Shown: positions 510-8,667, counted from the first letter of the stretch. The stretch: DNA of 64,000 nucleotides from Chitinivorax sp. PXF-14 (GCF_040812015.1 NZ_JBFNXJ010000014.1:1-64000); one strand, 5' to 3'. A program made the numbers and translations. The notes: generated by a model not told the origin, from the letters alone.

Positions 510-1502
510 ATGAAAGCACTGCAATTTGCACAAACGGGCTCGCTGGATAATCTGTCGCTCGTCGACCTGCCCAGGCCAACGATCGCGGTCCATGAGGCCT
601 TGGTCGAGGTGCATGCGGCCGGCCTCAACCCGAGTGACGTCAAGAATGTGCTGGGACGTTTCCCGTATACAACGCTACCGCGAATACCGGGGCGAGATTT
701 TGCCGGCATCGTGGTTGAAGGACCGCAGGAATGGCTGGGCCAGCCAGTCTGGGGGACGGGCAACGAACTCGGATTTTCGCGTGATGGTAGCCACGCCAAC
801 TATCTGGCCCTCCCCGTCTCCGGCCTGTCGCGAAAACCCGCAGCCCTATCGTTTGCACAGGCTGCCGCATGTGGCGTCCCCTTCACCACCGCGCTGAATG
901 CGCTCGACCGCGCCTGCGTAGGGGCCGGCACCAAGCTGTTGGTCATCGGCGCCGCCGGCGCGGTGGGTCGGGCTGCCGTCCAGCTGGCGCAATTACGCGG
1001 CGCGCAGGTCGTCGCGGCCGTTCGCCAGGAAAGCCAGCTGCAACGCTTGCAGCAGGAAGGCATGGAAACCTTGCTGCTAGGCGGCACAGCCGATCTGGCT
1101 ACATCCGTAAAACAGCGCTATCCGCATGGGGCTGACGTCATTTTCGACACGACCGGCGCATGGCTCGCGGCCTCGGTCGAGGCCCTCGCCAGATTCGGGC
1201 GGATTGCGGTGATTGCCGCGCCGGCCGATGGCCACGTCAATGTACCGGTCCTGAATCTGTATCGTCGTGGCGGCAGCATCGTCGGCATCAATTCGCTGTT
1301 GTATGACTCGACTGACTGTGCGGCCATGCTCACGCAGCTGGCGGCGCATTTCGATAGCGGAAAACTGCAAGCCCCTGCCGATCTGCGATCGATACCGCTG
1401 GAACAAGGTCACGACGCTTATATGCTGACGGACACTGGTGGCGCGGCCAAGATCGTGCTCGACATCCATCGACCAGACCCGGACACGGCACACGGACGCT
1501 AG
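510..1502 (+). CDS. NADP-dependent quinone oxidoreductase-like protein (zinc-independent MDR family)
   Basis: A 330-residue medium-chain dehydrogenase/reductase. It has an N-terminal GroES-like domain (about residues 1-120) followed by a Rossmann fold with the nucleotide-binding glycine motif GAAGAVG near residues 147-153. The structural and catalytic zinc cysteines of alcohol dehydrogenases are absent, which points to the quinone oxidoreductase/enoyl reductase branch. Such enzymes reduce quinones, enones or alkenals with NADPH in the cytosol; the substrate here cannot be read from sequence. The start is supported by AGGGAAGA just upstream. Its 3' end overlaps the convergent AraC-type gene by 4 bp, so the two are packed tail to tail. 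No operon partner is present. Confidence 0.85.
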   Translation: MKALQFAQTGSLDNLSLVDLPRPTIAVHEALVEVHAAGLNPSDVKNVLGRFPYTTLPRIPGRDFAGIVVEGPQEWLGQPVWGTGNELGFSRDGSHANYLALPVSGLSRKPAALSFAQAAACGVPFTTALNALDRACVGAGTKLLVIGAAGAVGRAAVQLAQLRGAQVVAAVRQESQLQRLQQEGMETLLLGGTADLATSVKQRYPHGADVIFDTTGAWLAASVEALARFGRIAVIAAPADGHVNVPVLNLYRRGGSIVGINSLLYDSTDCAAMLTQLAAHFDSGKLQAPADLRSIPLEQGHDAYMLTDTGGAAKIVLDIHRPDPDTAHGR

Positions 1503-2551
1503 TCGTCAGGCACAGCCGCCATGCCCATGCGTGCAGTGCTTGGGGCAAGCCCCGTCCACCGCTTATAGGCCTGCGAGAACGTCGACAAGTCGCTGAAACC
1601 CAACGCGTCAGCTACCTCCGTCAAGCTGATGCGTTGGTTTGCCAGCAACTTGTCTGCCTTGGCCAGGCGCGAGGCAGCCAGCATTTCGCTGAACGATGTG
1701 CCCTCCATTTGCAGCCAGCGTTTGAGTGTTCGCTCGCTCGTGTTCAGCAGCTGGGCCATCCTGCCCAGGCTTGGGGGCCGGTTACTGGGCAGGTTGTCCA
1801 GATATTGGCGCACCAGTGCCGCCGTTCCCAGCTGCGACCGGCGCTGCTCGATCAGCTCGCCGCACATCTGTCTGCACATCGCCACCGTGACGGGGTTGGC
1901 TTGTGGCAGCTTCTGCTCCAGGTAGGCATGGCTGAACGACAGTACATTTGCCTTGGCGCCGAATTCCGGCACGATTCCAGAGACCAGCGGGGAAGGCGCT
2001 GCCCTTGGGATATCCGGGTAACGCAGCCGGAATGCACTCGGCTTGAAATCGCTGCCGGTCACATCGTGCAACAGCCGGCACGCCGCGCCCATGGCTCGTT
2101 CGACGACAAAACGCTGCACAGCCGGCTCAAGATCCCCTGGTGGGTCGAAGTAGAGGTTATCGAGATCGCCCTCGCGCTTGTGGGTGATGGCGGTGAATGC
2201 ATAGGTGAGCGGAAGATACTGCTGGGCCAGCGCCAGCGCGTCGCCGCCGGTTGCACTGCACATCAATCCGTAGCCCAGAATGCCGTAGGCCGTGAGGTGG
2301 TATTGCAAGCCAACCTGCAGACCAAGGCCCGCCGACTGCTTCGATAGTTGCAACAGGTTCCCAATCACGATGAGCTCCTGTCCCGGTGCAACAGGGTGAT
2401 TGGGATCGTTCAGTTGAGCCATGGCGAGCCGGCTTCCGGCCAGCAGCCTCGCCGGCTCTATCGCCAGGGTTGCGGCGAACTCGAGCAAGAGCCGCACACT
2501 GGCCGGCCCACGAGAGAAATCCCAGAAACTCATTTGTCGCATCCGTTCCAA
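1499..2551 (-). CDS. AraC-family transcriptional regulator (long form with N-terminal AraC-binding domain)
   Basis: A 350-residue regulator. Residues about 20-200 match the architecture of the 'arabinose-binding domain of AraC-type regulators' group (OruR/ArgR-like), and about 250-340 hold a double helix-turn-helix. The second helix-turn-helix includes VADALGFSDLSTFSQAYKRW, a classic AraC signature. The outermost start is TTG at 2551. It is chosen because MERMRQMSFWDF then aligns with MERKRGKLQWDF of the paralogue at 4090-5145; ATG at 2542 or 2533 remains possible. It is divergent from the lipoprotein hydrolase gene, about 100 bp away, which is its most likely target. The ligand is unknown. 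Confidence 0.88.
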   Translation of the reverse strand: MERMRQMSFWDFSRGPASVRLLLEFAATLAIEPARLLAGSRLAMAQLNDPNHPVAPGQELIVIGNLLQLSKQSAGLGLQVGLQYHLTAYGILGYGLMCSATGGDALALAQQYLPLTYAFTAITHKREGDLDNLYFDPPGDLEPAVQRFVVERAMGAACRLLHDVTGSDFKPSAFRLRYPDIPRAAPSPLVSGIVPEFGAKANVLSFSHAYLEQKLPQANPVTVAMCRQMCGELIEQRRSQLGTAALVRQYLDNLPSNRPPSLGRMAQLLNTSERTLKRWLQMEGTSFSEMLAASRLAKADKLLANQRISLTEVADALGFSDLSTFSQAYKRWTGLAPSTARMGMAAVPDD

Positions 2552-2652: not shown

Positions 2653-3870
2653 ATGACCCGTTTTTCTGCCAACCGACCCGTCAGGGTAAGACATGCAGCC
2701 GTACTGGCGTTTGCCGGGCTGCTCTCCGCCTGTGCAGTTCACACATCATCGGCCGACGATCAGGCCCCGAATATGAAGGAGGACAAACCCATGAGCTATG
2801 CCAGCCAGCCGAATTGGCGCGAGATTCAGCAGTTCCTGCCCAAGGTGTTCCAGCTTGGCCAAGGGCAGGAGCCCGCCGAGGAATGGTGGGATTGGCACGA
2901 TCACAAGATACACCTGGATACCTACCGCAATCCGCAAGCTAAAGTGAAGGTCATCCTGTTCCATGGCGTCGGCACCAACGGCCGCCAGATGTCTCTCATC
3001 CTCGGCGCACCGCTTGCCAGGCGTGGCTACGAAACCATTGCCATCGACATGCCCGGCTACGGGGTCACCCAGGTTGCCAAGGGGGCGCCGGTCAAGTACG
3101 ACGACTGGGTGCAGGCAGGCAGCGACTACATCGATACGGAGCTGGCGCGCGACAATCGACCCATCGTCCTGTACGGCCTGAGCGCAGGCGGGATGGAGAC
3201 CTACCACGTGGCGGCGCTCAACAGGAAGGTCAAGGCAATTGTCGGCATGACCTTTCTCGATCAGCGCGAGCAGCAGGTGCGCGATGAAACCGCCTTGAAC
3301 CTGTTCATGAGCCGGGTGGGTGGGCCCATGCTGCATCTGACGGCCAAAACACCACTCGCTTCCATGACCATACCGATGAGCCTGGCCAGCAAAATGAGCG
3401 CGCTCGTGAACAACGACGATGCCCTGAGCGTCTTCCTGAAAGACAGATCATCCGCCGGCAACGCCATGTCGATGGCCTTCCTCAGCTCCTATATGCGCTA
3501 CCAGCCTGTCTTGGAGCCGGAAGACTTCGATGTCTGCCCCATCCTGCTCACGCAGCCGGCACAGGATCGCTGGACACCGTTGCATTTGAGCAAACCATTC
3601 CTGGGCCGCATCCACAAGGTCCCCGTCAGGACCGTGATGCTGGAAAACGCCGGGCACTACCCGCTGGAACAACCTGGCCTTTCCCAGATGGTTGACGCGA
3701 TCGATCGCTTTTACCAGGAAACGGCCGGCACGCAAGCGCCCCATGATGCGAGCCCCCTGACCAAGCCAAACGGAACGAACGGCCCCGGTAACACGCGAGG
3801 GAGGCAGACCTGCACGCGATCGAGGTGCGGGACACACCGGCCGATCTGCCGATCAGCGCCTAGAAGATGA
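2653..3870 (+). CDS. Lipoprotein alpha/beta hydrolase with an unusual C-terminal tail
   Basis: A 405-residue protein with an N-terminal signal and lipobox LLSAC (Cys27), so probably lipid-anchored. The alpha/beta-hydrolase catalytic set is visible: oxyanion motif HGVG (104-107), nucleophile elbow GLSAG (Ser177), acid in AQDRW (Asp305) and histidine in NAGHYP (His335). It is likely an esterase, lipase or lactonase; the substrate is unknown. GGAG sits about 8 bases before the ATG. The recognisable domain ends near residue 357. The last roughly 45 residues are Arg/Thr/Pro-rich and look non-native, while another frame of the same DNA is more protein-like, so a 3' frameshift or fusion to non-coding DNA is possible. 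Divergent from an AraC-type regulator. Confidence 0.85.
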   Translation: MTRFSANRPVRVRHAAVLAFAGLLSACAVHTSSADDQAPNMKEDKPMSYASQPNWREIQQFLPKVFQLGQGQEPAEEWWDWHDHKIHLDTYRNPQAKVKVILFHGVGTNGRQMSLILGAPLARRGYETIAIDMPGYGVTQVAKGAPVKYDDWVQAGSDYIDTELARDNRPIVLYGLSAGGMETYHVAALNRKVKAIVGMTFLDQREQQVRDETALNLFMSRVGGPMLHLTAKTPLASMTIPMSLASKMSALVNNDDALSVFLKDRSSAGNAMSMAFLSSYMRYQPVLEPEDFDVCPILLTQPAQDRWTPLHLSKPFLGRIHKVPVRTVMLENAGHYPLEQPGLSQMVDAIDRFYQETAGTQAPHDASPLTKPNGTNGPGNTRGRQTCTRSRCGTHRPICRSAPRR

Positions 3871-4089: not shown

Positions 4090-5145
4090 TCATCCGCGTG
4101 GCAACGTCACGCGGGCTTGAGCCTGTTTGCGGAAGCTCAGCGGCGTTTTCCCGGTCCAGCGCTTGAAGGCGTTGATGAAGCTGGTTGGTTCTGCATAGCC
4201 CAGCCTGTCGGCGATTTGTTCGATGGAAAGCGAGCTGCTGCTCAAAAACTCCTCGGATAGCGCCAGCCGGACTTCTTCACGCAGTTTGAAAAAGCTGGTG
4301 TCGTCTTCGAGCAGCCGGCGGCGCAGGGTGCGCGATGTCATGCACAGAGTCGCCGCCACACTGTCCATATCCGGCATCTGCGCGACATGGCGCGCCAGAT
4401 GCGCCCGTACCGTTGCCGCAAATCCGCTTCTGGATTGGTAACGATCCAGCAATGCGCGGCACTGTTCTTCCGCCACCCGCAAGGCAAGCTCGTTGGCTTG
4501 CGGCAACGGTGCCATCAGCGTGGCGACGTCGAGGATGGCCAGATTCGATGCGCAGCCGAATACCGGACGGATATGATAAAAAGCCTCATGCGCACCCACA
4601 TCGGCCGGCGCTGGATAAGCCAGCTGCAAGCCCGTCAGCACCGGGCGCGACGAATACAGATCGCGCTGGACGTTGATCAGCGCCGCCGAATCGCGCTCGA
4701 CGACAAAAGCACGCACCGCTTCGGGCAGGCCGCTATCATCCAGCAACACGTGGATCTCACCGCCGGTTTCTTCGACGCGGAAATGTGTCAGCGCAAAAGT
4801 CAGATGAAAGTAGCGCATCGAGATATCCAGCGCGCTGAGCATATTCGGGCTGCAGACGATGGCCAGCCCCAGCGCGCCGAAGGTCGTGAAGTGGTAGCGC
4901 TTGCCGGCCTCGATGCCCAATCCGGGAATATGCCCCAGATGCTCGACCAGATTATGTATCAGGCGCAACTCCTGCGCGCCTGATACCACCACGGCCGGGT
5001 CGGCCAGTTCCTTTTCCAGCACGTCGGTACCGGCGAGACAGATGCTTGCCGGCAAACCATAGTCCGCCCCCAGTTGCGTCATCAGGCGCATGCTGGTGAC
5101 GTTGCGTGGAAAGTCCCACTGCAGCTTGCCGCGTTTACGCTCCAT
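4090..5145 (-). CDS. AraC-family transcriptional regulator, paralogue of the 1499-2551 gene
   Basis: A 351-residue regulator with the same two-part layout as the upstream paralogue: an N-terminal effector-type domain (about 20-210) and a C-terminal AraC double helix-turn-helix (about 240-340, with IADRLGYAEPTSFINAFKRW). The ATG at 5145 follows GAGGAC at good spacing. It is divergent from the acyl-CoA dehydrogenase/acetoacetate decarboxylase operon, with 230 bp between the starts, so it very probably controls that operon. The intergenic DNA contains a small hairpin (TCGGGG/CCCCGA, 5230-5247). An inducer related to the operon's acyl substrate is an inference. Confidence 0.88.
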   Translation of the reverse strand: MERKRGKLQWDFPRNVTSMRLMTQLGADYGLPASICLAGTDVLEKELADPAVVVSGAQELRLIHNLVEHLGHIPGLGIEAGKRYHFTTFGALGLAIVCSPNMLSALDISMRYFHLTFALTHFRVEETGGEIHVLLDDSGLPEAVRAFVVERDSAALINVQRDLYSSRPVLTGLQLAYPAPADVGAHEAFYHIRPVFGCASNLAILDVATLMAPLPQANELALRVAEEQCRALLDRYQSRSGFAATVRAHLARHVAQMPDMDSVAATLCMTSRTLRRRLLEDDTSFFKLREEVRLALSEEFLSSSSLSIEQIADRLGYAEPTSFINAFKRWTGKTPLSFRKQAQARVTLPRG

Positions 5146-5375: not shown

Positions 5376-6503
5376 ATGGATAGTGAAGATACGAAACAGC
5401 TGCTTGAGGCGACCGGCCGATTTGCCGCCGAGCGCATCGCCGGCATGGCCGAGCGACCGGAGCACCCGGCGAGTGCTGCCCAACTGGCATCGCTGACGCA
5501 GGAAGCCGCCGAGCTGGGCATCCTGTCGCAGTCGACGGCCGAGGCAGGATTTGCCATCTGGGAAGATAGCGGCGATGCGCACGCCATGCGTTTCAACCTC
5601 GGCGCACTGCAGCAAATCGCAGCCGCCTGCCCCGGCGTTGCGCTGGCCTGGCACCGGCAGGCCCTGGCGCGGCATGTCGCCGTGCAACTCGGCCTTGCCA
5701 TCGGCGAGCAGGATCTGCGCACGCTGACGCTGATGCCGACCGGCCACTATGGCCTGGCGCGGACAAGCCTGGCCAGATGGCTGGCTGGCGCCGGGCTGAC
5801 GGCCGAGGACGGGGCGCTGCTGTCGGACTGGCTGGATCGATCGAATCACCCGCCCGTGCTCTGCGCCCCCGCCGACTGGAGCGGCCTGATCTGGCCGGTG
5901 TGGCGCGCAGGGCGGATTGCCTGGCACTACGCCGCACGCACGGCGCTGGCGGTCAATATCGGCAAGCCGCAGCATGGGTTCGACGAGCTGGCGGGTTTCG
6001 AGGTGTCGCTGCCGGGTGTGGCGGGAGAAACCGTTGAGCTTGAGCCAGCACGTTCCCGCCAGCTTTACGCCCAAGTGCTGAAGATGGAGTTGCTCGGCCT
6101 GCTGGCGATCGGCGCTGGCGCGCTGGATCGCGGGCAGGCCCTGGCCCGCGACTACGTGGCGATCCGCAGGCAAGGCGGCAAGTTGATCGCCGAACATCCG
6201 GCGGTGCAGCAAATGCTGAGCGACATCGAGATCACCCGAACCCAGGCAAGCATGGCGCTGCGGATGTGCTCTGTCACCGTGGACGAACTCGACCTCGGCG
6301 AGCTGATGGCCAGCCGCGCCAGCATCAGCCCGATGCTTTGCCATGCAGCCAACCAGGTGGTGCAGATTCACGGCGGTATCGGCTATATGCGCGATGCCGG
6401 GCCGGAAAAACTGGTGCGCGACCAGAACATGCTGCGGCTGATGTCCGGCGGCATCCGCGACATTCCTTTGTTTCTCGCAGCATGGACAGGAGCCAGGCAA
6501 TGA
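5376..6503 (+). CDS. Acyl-CoA dehydrogenase-like protein lacking the canonical catalytic glutamate
   Basis: A 375-residue flavoprotein-type protein of the acyl-CoA dehydrogenase superfamily. Family features include the C-terminal helical segment with QVVQIHGGIGYMRDAGPEK. Where active dehydrogenases carry a Glu-Gly-Thr loop (catalytic base), this protein reads LMSGGIRDIP, so the usual C-terminal glutamate is missing. The start at ATG 5376 is preferred over upstream candidates because AAGGA precedes it at proper distance. The stop overlaps the next gene's start (ATGA), showing translational coupling to a second dehydrogenase that does keep the glutamate. By analogy with heteromeric acyl-CoA dehydrogenases of actinobacterial sterol catabolism, this may be the non-catalytic subunit; that is inference. 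Confidence 0.82.
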   Translation: MDSEDTKQLLEATGRFAAERIAGMAERPEHPASAAQLASLTQEAAELGILSQSTAEAGFAIWEDSGDAHAMRFNLGALQQIAAACPGVALAWHRQALARHVAVQLGLAIGEQDLRTLTLMPTGHYGLARTSLARWLAGAGLTAEDGALLSDWLDRSNHPPVLCAPADWSGLIWPVWRAGRIAWHYAARTALAVNIGKPQHGFDELAGFEVSLPGVAGETVELEPARSRQLYAQVLKMELLGLLAIGAGALDRGQALARDYVAIRRQGGKLIAEHPAVQQMLSDIEITRTQASMALRMCSVTVDELDLGELMASRASISPMLCHAANQVVQIHGGIGYMRDAGPEKLVRDQNMLRLMSGGIRDIPLFLAAWTGARQ

Positions 6504-7873
6504 GCCATCGACTGAATCTGGAAGGGCATCTGCCTGCCAACCACCTGCTGTCGCCACACTGGCAGTTTGCCAGGCTGCCGCTGATCGGCCGGATGCTGAG
6601 CAACTACCGCTCAACCGACCTGTGGCAAAACGATGTGGCCCAGCTGCCACGGGCGCTGCGGGACATCCGCCGCCGCGCACGCGCCTTTGCCGATCAGCAC
6701 ATTCGCCCGGTGGCAGACGAGCTGGATCTTGCCCCGCATCTGCCGCCCGGCGAATGCCACCCGCTGGCTCTACAGGTGCTGCGTGAGGCAGGCCGCCAGG
6801 GATGGCTCAGCTACATGCTGCCGGCACCGTTTGGCAACATGCCGCTGGGCGCGGTGCTGCATCCTCCAATCTGGCAATGCGCGCTGGTGGTCGAAGAATT
6901 CAGCCGGGCCTGCGGTGGATTGATGCTGCTGCTATCGGCGCACCATTTGGGGCTGATGCCGCTGCTGGTGTCCGGCAGTGTCCGCTCGATCATGCGCCAT
7001 GTATTGCCGGTGTATCGCAGCTGCCAACGCGGCGAGCCACACCTGGTGGCGTTCGCCATCACCGAGCCCGGCGCCGGCTCCGACGCGGAAGAAGGTCATG
7101 GAGCAGAAAGCTATCGCCCGGGTGTAGTAGCAACGCCGGTAGACGGTGGCTACCTGCTCAACGGCCGCAAGTGTTTCATCAGCGGCGGCGATATCGCCAA
7201 GAGCGCGACGGTGTTTGCAGCGCTCAAGGGTGAAGGCATGGAATCGTGGACATGCTTCTGGGTCGATTCCACCGCGCCCGGTTTCAGTGTCGCCCGCACC
7301 GAGCTGAAGATGGGCATGCGTGCTTCTGGCGCTGCCGAGCTTGAGTTCAATGACGTGTTTGTCCCACACGGCAACATCATCGGCGGCCTGCGCCAGGGCT
7401 GGGCGCTCAACCGGGCCACGCTCAATGCGTCGCGCATCCCCGTGGCCTCGATGGGGGTCGGCTTTGCCAGCGCGGCCACCGAAGTCGCAGTGGAGTTCAC
7501 CCGGCGCTACACGCTGGCCGGCAAACCCTTGATCGACTACCAGGACGTGCAGTTGCAGCTGGCGACGATGCTGGCCGAAACCCGGGCGATCCGCAGCCTG
7601 GTCTGGCAAGAGGCCAGAAACGCCTGGCGGCCAAGACAACTCAATGCATCGCTGTGCAAGTTTCAGGCAACCGACCGTGCACAGCACGTCTGCGAAATGG
7701 CCATGGATCTGCTCGCCGACCACGGCGGCAGACATGAGCTGCGGCTGGAAAAGATTTTCCGCGATGTCCGCTTGACGCGGATTTTCGAGGGTACCAACCA
7801 GATCAACCGATTGTCCCTGATCGAAGACTGGCAAGGGCAGCTGCTCGATCTTGATCAACCTGTGGGAGTGTGA
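6500..7873 (+). CDS. Acyl-CoA dehydrogenase (catalytic partner)
   Basis: A 457-residue acyl-CoA dehydrogenase, about 70 residues longer than typical short- or medium-chain enzymes because of an N-terminal extension before the first helical domain. The flavin/substrate segment AFAITEPGAGSDAEEG is visible, and the C-terminal IFEGTNQINRL holds the canonical catalytic glutamate (about Glu430). It should oxidise an acyl-CoA at the alpha-beta bond with electron transfer to ETF. It starts at ATG 6500 inside the stop of the preceding dehydrogenase gene, with AGGAG just upstream. The acetoacetate decarboxylase gene follows after 2 bases. Substrate unknown. Confidence 0.9.
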   Translation: MSHRLNLEGHLPANHLLSPHWQFARLPLIGRMLSNYRSTDLWQNDVAQLPRALRDIRRRARAFADQHIRPVADELDLAPHLPPGECHPLALQVLREAGRQGWLSYMLPAPFGNMPLGAVLHPPIWQCALVVEEFSRACGGLMLLLSAHHLGLMPLLVSGSVRSIMRHVLPVYRSCQRGEPHLVAFAITEPGAGSDAEEGHGAESYRPGVVATPVDGGYLLNGRKCFISGGDIAKSATVFAALKGEGMESWTCFWVDSTAPGFSVARTELKMGMRASGAAELEFNDVFVPHGNIIGGLRQGWALNRATLNASRIPVASMGVGFASAATEVAVEFTRRYTLAGKPLIDYQDVQLQLATMLAETRAIRSLVWQEARNAWRPRQLNASLCKFQATDRAQHVCEMAMDLLADHGGRHELRLEKIFRDVRLTRIFEGTNQINRLSLIEDWQGQLLDLDQPVGV

Positions 7874-7875
7874 AC

Positions 7876-8667
7876 ATGAGCATCGACAAGTGGAACCAGG
7901 ACTATTTCTTTCAATATCCGCGCACCGTGATTCCGACTTCGGAAGGGGACGTGGAGATGCCGATCATGTATTACGACGATTCGGTGATGATGGCCCTGTT
8001 CCGCGTAGACCATGAACGCGCGCAGGCAATGGTCGCGGATCAAGGCTTGCAGGCGGTGCGCATCGCCGGCAACAAGGCCCTGGTGGGGCTGGCCTTCTAC
8101 CAGTATCGGCAGACTTCGATTGCCGACTACAACGAAGTCGGTGTTGCCATCGCCGTGGTGCCCAATGGCACGGCGGAACCCAGCCTGCCTTTGCTGTCGA
8201 TGTTCCGCACCTTGGACAAGGCGCCGATCGGCTTCTACATCGTCGATCTGCCCGTCACGACCAAGGCGGCTTGCGCTGCGGGGCGGGAAATCTGGGGCTA
8301 CCCGAAGTTTGTCACGCCGATCGGCTTCAAGCAGACGGGACGCCAGTTCGAGGGGTCGGTAACCGACCCCCTGACGGGCAAGAACCTGGTCAGGCTGTCG
8401 GGAAAACTGGGGGCCGGGGTGCCGGCTCCCCTGCTCGACCTGGTGCTGTACTCGCACCACGACAACCGCCTGTTGCGCACGTTGGTCAATACCCGTGGCG
8501 GCGCCAAGGCCTGCCTGCCGGGCTCCCTGCGCGTCAGCGTGGCGGCCAGCAGGCACCCGATGGCCCAGCGATTGGCGGCGCTCGGGCTTGACCAGGCACG
8601 ACCTGTATTCGTGTTCCACAGCGACAAACTGCAGCTTCGCCTCAACGCCGGCGCGGAGGTGGGTTGA
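7876..8667 (+). CDS. Acetoacetate decarboxylase family protein
   Basis: A 263-residue acetoacetate decarboxylase family protein. GREIWGYPKF at 136-145 matches the region of the active-site lysine that forms a Schiff base with the beta-keto acid (Lys144 is the candidate). ATG 7876 is preferred over GTG 7870 because GGAG lies at better spacing. True members convert acetoacetate to acetone and CO2; related members act as decarboxylases, aldolases or dehydratases on other keto acids. Its place in a three-gene operon with two acyl-CoA dehydrogenases suggests handling of a beta-keto or branched acid from acyl-CoA oxidation. The exact reaction is not determined by sequence. Confidence 0.88.
   Translation: MSIDKWNQDYFFQYPRTVIPTSEGDVEMPIMYYDDSVMMALFRVDHERAQAMVADQGLQAVRIAGNKALVGLAFYQYRQTSIADYNEVGVAIAVVPNGTAEPSLPLLSMFRTLDKAPIGFYIVDLPVTTKAACAAGREIWGYPKFVTPIGFKQTGRQFEGSVTDPLTGKNLVRLSGKLGAGVPAPLLDLVLYSHHDNRLLRTLVNTRGGAKACLPGSLRVSVAASRHPMAQRLAALGLDQARPVFVFHSDKLQLRLNAGAEVG

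Follow-up and report, generated by a model that had tools for sequence, protein, structure and literature searches.

A predicted two-subunit acyl-CoA dehydrogenase with a divided active site, encoded next to an acetoacetate-decarboxylase-fold protein in Chitinivorax sp. PXF-14

Gene order at the Chitinivorax locus and in other genomes

The window analysed here is a stretch of 64,000 nucleotides from Chitinivorax sp. PXF-14 (GCF_040812015.1 NZ_JBFNXJ010000014.1:1-64000). It contains two adjacent genes of the acyl-CoA dehydrogenase (ACAD) fold that are followed by a gene of the acetoacetate decarboxylase (ADC) fold. This layout, with an ATGA overlap inside the ACAD pair and a divergent AraC-type regulator, had been described in a first-pass annotation and holds with all its coordinates; both motifs reported there are present, LMSGGIRDIP in the first protein (ACAD1) and IFEGTNQINRL in the second (ACAD2). 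The main features are:

5376-6503, plus strand: ACAD1, 375 amino acids (aa), putative non-catalytic ACAD-fold subunit (Pfam); complete ACAD fold in its AlphaFold2 (AF2) model (pLDDT 92.9, pTM 0.94)
6500-6503, plus strand: 4-base ATGA stop/start overlap of ACAD1 and ACAD2; the frames are fused in at least seven homologous genes
6500-7873, plus strand: ACAD2, 457 aa, putative catalytic subunit with E430 of EGT, R312 and TEPGAGSD (188-195)
7876-8667, plus strand: ADC, acetoacetate-decarboxylase-fold protein, 263 aa, PF06314, with K144, E87, R137 and F145
4090-5145, minus strand: divergent AraC-type regulator with a Pfam PF12625 sensor domain and HTH_18

In ACAD2 the N-terminal, middle and C-terminal ACAD domains are all matched by Pfam, and in ACAD1 the C-terminal domain is the sole match.

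The arrangement is not a product of chance, since its order is repeated at 37 further loci and the same 4-base overlap is found at 24 of 38 scored junctions. When ADC was used as query, one distant genome proved to have all four genes arranged alike (identity 33% for ACAD1, 55% for ACAD2 and 39% for ADC). The 37 loci, with ACAD2 identities of 53-78%, were then revealed when 84,980 species genomes were searched with a profile. As two of the entries (L034 and L054) derive from a single contig, one locus is counted twice in all family counts. The order ACAD1-ACAD2-ADC is kept at every locus where the contig is long enough, neighbours other than the module genes are not conserved across loci, and together these observations bear out the earlier description as a small dedicated module of genes. 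Its hosts are Proteobacteria as well as metagenome-assembled genomes (MAGs) labelled Gemmatimonadetes (two) and Deltaproteobacteria or Myxococcales. Named carriers include Pseudomonas benzenivorans, Marinobacter, Ideonella, Aquabacterium, Sinimarinibacterium and gamma proteobacterium HdN1, and Moraxellaceae and Fluviicoccus MAGs also belong to them. Neither four other genomes of the family nor the remainder of a 100-genome sample yielded a full-length relative of ACAD1 (E 1e-10), the few matches there spanning the C-terminal domain only, and no ACAD2 orthologue was found in 299 other genomes of the order (E 1e-55). ACAD1 is a fast-evolving protein whose peptide patterns are not kept; a first scan of the genome collection using ACAD1 alone gave no matches. 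Literature searches revealed no paper that treats the module as a unit.

At six of the 38 scored junctions (L056, L057, L058, L060, L061 and L063) ACAD1 and ACAD2 are fused in frame to a single open reading frame (ORF) of 791-834 codons without internal stops. The second module copy of HdN1 (L107) is also fused (869 aa) and has its own ADC. Those fused genes that were placed in the tree cluster together, so that one fusion event may account for all of them. Gene fusion is classical evidence of physical association.

Two side observations concern the integrity of single copies. ACAD1 of the first HdN1 copy (L066:8851-9978) reads as frame-shifted near its C-terminus, the fused second copy being intact. 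At L068:5083-6792 ACAD2 runs directly into the C-terminal half of ADC and parts of both genes are missing, which might reflect a deletion or faulty assembly.

Predicted division of the active site between the two subunits

In classical ACADs each active site is completed by the neighbouring subunit, and in medium-chain acyl-CoA dehydrogenase (MCAD) the segments R281-T283 and Q349-G353 of one subunit secure the ADP half of the flavin adenine dinucleotide (FAD) that belongs to the other. In the module these halves are reciprocally distributed over the two genes, as residue counts from the family alignment (about 35 pairs; MCAD numbering for the R256, R281, Q349 and G353 columns) reveal. ACAD2 proteins have the catalytic glutamate (37/37), the substrate arginine of R256 type (38/38) and the flavin motif TEPxxGSD (38/38), none of which occurs in any of 36 ACAD1 proteins. 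Conversely, the R281-type arginine is present in 36/36 ACAD1 but 1/38 ACAD2 proteins, the Q349-type glutamine in 35/35 versus 0/38 and the G353-type glycine in 35/35 versus 1/38, the last two columns comprising 35 ACAD1 proteins because one sequence is frame-shifted there. In the window ACAD1 has kept these trans contacts to FAD in RxQGG (264-268) and QIHGGIGYMRD (330-340), and ACAD2 is devoid of the R281- and Q349/G353-type contacts. Ordinary ACADs from the genome of the window and from two module-bearing genomes have kept both halves of the site. Judged from these sequence columns, the flavin-ring site lies in one subunit and the ADP-ribose contacts in the other.

Structures of steroid-type heteromers contain one FAD per pair, with the isoalloxazine ring and the glutamate on one subunit and the ADP-ribose on the other (PMC11153573, PMC8399759). 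Seen beside them, the mirror-image residue pattern strongly supports a heteromer of ACAD1 and ACAD2 with one composite active site per pair. A heteromer with a single catalytic partner had already been suggested in the first-pass annotation, and the reciprocal loss of site halves in about 35 pairs together with the natural fusions lends strong support to that suggestion. ACAD2 would bind the acyl-CoA and the isoalloxazine ring and provide the catalytic base, and ACAD1, as an inactive ACAD-fold partner, would reach over the subunit interface to clamp the ADP-ribose half of FAD. The complex, most likely an obligate alpha2-beta2 assembly with one FAD per pair, would introduce a double bond into an acyl-CoA. 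In its glutamate, arginine and flavin loop ACAD2 resembles the homotetrameric short/medium-chain acyl-CoA and butyryl-CoA dehydrogenases that are its best matches (1jqi, 1ukw, 5ol2, 7p98), but it differs from them by the missing cross-subunit FAD contacts, an N-terminal extension of about 45 residues and a presumably obligate partner.

Further adjacent ACAD pairs were found in module-bearing genomes. The pairs at L108:3450-6007 (HdN1) and L118:2186-4722 (Sinimarinibacterium) have one subunit without the R281/Q349/G353 contacts and a glutamate at the MCAD position in both subunits. Two sister pairs of HdN1, apparently also heteromeric, show reversed order with the catalytic gene first (L113:2167-4776 and L114:2230-4797). 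In the tree their subunits fall together with ACAD2 and ACAD1, the non-catalytic row forming a long branch; there is no ADC match within the 6 kb read, and the L113 pair adjoins an AMP-ligase-like ORF.

Relation to steroid heteromers and the glutamate of ACAD1

All heteromeric ACADs described in the cited literature belong to steroid degradation, namely the alpha2-beta2 enzymes ChsE4-ChsE5, ChsE1-ChsE2, Scd1AB and ScdC1C2 (PMC8399759, PMC12502768, PMC11153573). Since Comamonas testosteroni carries ChsE1-ChsE2 and ScdC1C2 (PMC12502768, PMC8399759), heteromeric ACADs as such are already known from betaproteobacteria (PMC12502768), and the earlier statement that such an enzyme would be unusual in this group is not supported. 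As a benchmark, eight pairs of the steroid type (ChsE-like) were taken from two module-bearing genomes, HdN1 and Sinimarinibacterium. Their recognition was based on pairing and residue pattern, in some cases also on proximity to HsaA, and not on names. Like the module, these pairs consist of adjacent ACAD-fold genes, one with the catalytic glutamate and the other with the contacts to the ADP-ribose of FAD, and they exhibit the same mirror split, apart from one pair with Q349 as histidine in only one partner and two pairs with alanine at the G353 site. The position of the glutamate is different. In all eight steroid-type catalytic subunits it is found at the helix-G position typical of isovaleryl-CoA dehydrogenase (IVD), with G or A in the J-K loop, whereas ACAD2 has serine at the helix-G position (38/38) and its glutamate in the J-K loop (MCAD-type).

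In the phylogenetic tree each module subunit forms its own fully supported clade outside the two strongly supported steroid-type clades. Topologies in which either module subunit is joined to those of the steroid enzymes are not rejected by approximately unbiased (AU) tests (p 0.22 and 0.36), and because of this an independent origin of the module pair, as suggested by residue position and tree, is favoured here but not claimed as demonstrated. Could the pair nevertheless be a repurposed member of the steroid ChsE/Scd clan whose substrate is the side chain of a steroid or another polycyclic compound? The common two-subunit logic and the AU tests are compatible with this, as are strong matches to HsaA of the 9,10-seco steroid pathway in three of 14 module genomes (none above the curated cut-off). 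We regard it as unlikely in view of the separate clades and the different glutamate position; moreover, the other 11 genomes, including that of the window, are without a strong HsaA match and no steroid genes were found among the annotated module neighbours. Instead of a steroid context the module has an ADC-fold gene and an AraC regulator, and it has given rise to natural fusions. With the ACAD1 profile ChsE4-ChsE5 (4x28) obtains a low rank, and for ACAD2 it is outside the top 60, which is weak evidence. With a second family in which labour is divided alike, the catalytic residue has another position and natural fusions occur, it would become testable why one active site is split over two proteins and how often this evolved.

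The IVD-type position is also of relevance for ACAD1, as E238 of the window protein aligns to the column of IVD E254. An active isovaleryl-type dehydrogenase using this residue, with ACAD1 and ACAD2 as independent homotetramers, might be envisaged because the ACAD1 fold is complete and human IVD is its top structural match (VIA Z 34.0, 344 residues, root-mean-square deviation 3.1), albeit tied with many other ACADs. In this column 18 of 36 ACAD1 proteins have E or D, and the remaining ones have Q, H, N, F, C or A (E10, D8, Q8, H5, N2, F, C, A). From the conserved Glu-Arg of helix G in isovaleryl-type homotetrameric ACADs, the glutamate is thus found in 10/36 and the subsequent substrate arginine, invariant in the ordinary ACADs compared, in 0/36; the TEPxxGSD loop is missing in all. 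With the site variable and both arginine and flavin loop gone, it is unlikely that ACAD1 works as an enzyme by itself. A catalytic acid at another position of ACAD1, which by the first-pass annotation would have refuted its proposal, was considered in this way and rejected, the column not being conserved. Furthermore, a homotetramer of ACAD2 would miss the cross-dimer FAD contacts that the compared ordinary ACADs keep, and the natural fusions speak against separate homotetramers, which makes this explanation highly improbable. A general catalytic role of the E238 column appears unlikely, though the residue may serve the structure in some lineages.

The decarboxylase-fold partner and the putative role of the module

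ADC of the window surpasses the curated cut-off of PF06314 (79.2 versus 29.8 bits); with NCBIfam PRK02265 it scores far below the cut-off. Its sequence GREIWGYPKF aligns to GREIWGFPKK of the solved Legionella ADC (3c8w), so the Schiff-base lysine of the GREIWGxPK motif is retained and the second lysine of the classical PKK motif is replaced by F, I or T. Among 35 aligned family members (32-69% identity to the window ADC) K144 and E87 are invariant (35/35 each), and the second lysine, unlike in classical acetoacetate decarboxylases, is absent from all (F29/I5/T1); identity to solved ADCs is very weak. The genome of the window has two other ADC-family genes, one of them with the classical PKK.

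Taken as a whole, it is likely that the module encodes a split heteromeric dehydrogenase and a decarboxylase-fold enzyme of one AraC-regulated route of lipid catabolism. ADC with its Schiff-base lysine would act later in this route, and the simplest reading of its reaction is that a ketone is formed from a beta-keto acid by decarboxylation; that the ACAD pair feeds a keto-acid decarboxylase is our inference. Concerning the substrate, acyl chains derived from lipid polyesters or hydrocarbons are a guess. A proteome study of Rhodanobacter thiooxydans growing on suberin from potato lists two ACADs (I4WM94, I4WM95) and an acetoacetate decarboxylase (I4WM96) with consecutive accessions; ADC was detected on day 5 and again on day 30, the two ACADs on day 30, and the authors did not regard them as a unit (PMC5158114). 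These tables contain suberin-medium proteomes only and say nothing on induction. The three proteins probably represent this operon, as indicated by their consecutive accessions rather than by their sequences. ACAD1 was found in two of 233 Rhodanobacteraceae genomes searched (E 1e-30), both of which carry all three genes. An overlap of a short-chain dehydrogenase/reductase (SDR) gene with the end of ADC at L036, L047, L049 and L069 is a further point in favour of the proposed route.

Several observations weigh against it. The module has no conserved neighbour that encodes a hydratase, thiolase or CoA ligase. One fused protein was modelled with AF2, but the model (pTM 0.56) is too uncertain to reveal the packing of the halves. 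ADC relatives with 42-43% identity occur on Moraxella and Acinetobacter plasmids without ACADs, and therefore ADC can work apart from the pair. The ADC fold is also known to host non-decarboxylases and, with the second lysine lost, decarboxylation is not assured; other Schiff-base chemistry is possible. In the plasmid group (Moraxella osloensis and Acinetobacter variabilis; L029:8977-9798, L030:8977-9795 and L031:8977-9798) the Moraxella gene adjoins a methionine-synthase-like gene and an alpha/beta hydrolase.

The same loss of lysine, the versatility of the fold and the known action of ACAD-fold enzymes on carrier-protein substrates (a prolyl-ACP dehydrogenase is among the PDB matches) would fit an ACP-tethered oxidase of secondary metabolism with an aldolase or cyclase as partner, but this is very doubtful, since no carrier protein or synthetase was found among annotated module neighbours, ACAD2 retains EGT and the arginine typical of CoA dehydrogenases with short-chain acyl-CoA dehydrogenases as best matches, and several hosts have names or sources (record titles) hinting at oil, solvents or groundwater, the latter being suggestive only.

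Returning to the catabolic dehydrogenase-decarboxylase module, its constant ADC partner would point to an uncharacterised step in the catabolism of environmental bacteria. By standard annotation the genes would be named two dehydrogenases and an acetone-forming enzyme, and the three consecutive Rhodanobacter accessions were read in this way (PMC5158114). Considerably more tentative is a wider scenario of an independent split-ACAD lineage, fused in one branch, that forms an inducible unit of dehydrogenase and Schiff-base decarboxylase for an undescribed lipid catabolism and has spread horizontally among distant bacteria.

Two more genes of the window have to be mentioned in this context:

2653-3870, plus strand: alpha/beta hydrolase (Pfam), possible accessory gene, membership uncertain
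1499-2551, minus strand: second AraC regulator of the same family as that at 4090-5145 (tblastn)

An alpha/beta hydrolase overlaps the end of ADC at L043, and hydrolases also adjoin the module in L043 and L064. Of 39 tabulated loci, 22 have a divergent AraC gene beside ACAD1. In L037, L040, L041 and L042 the module regulators are closer to the AraC protein encoded at 1499-2551 (42-47%) than to that at 4090-5145 (tblastn). The regulators nearer to the former come from Pseudomonas, Marinobacter and Ideonella modules.

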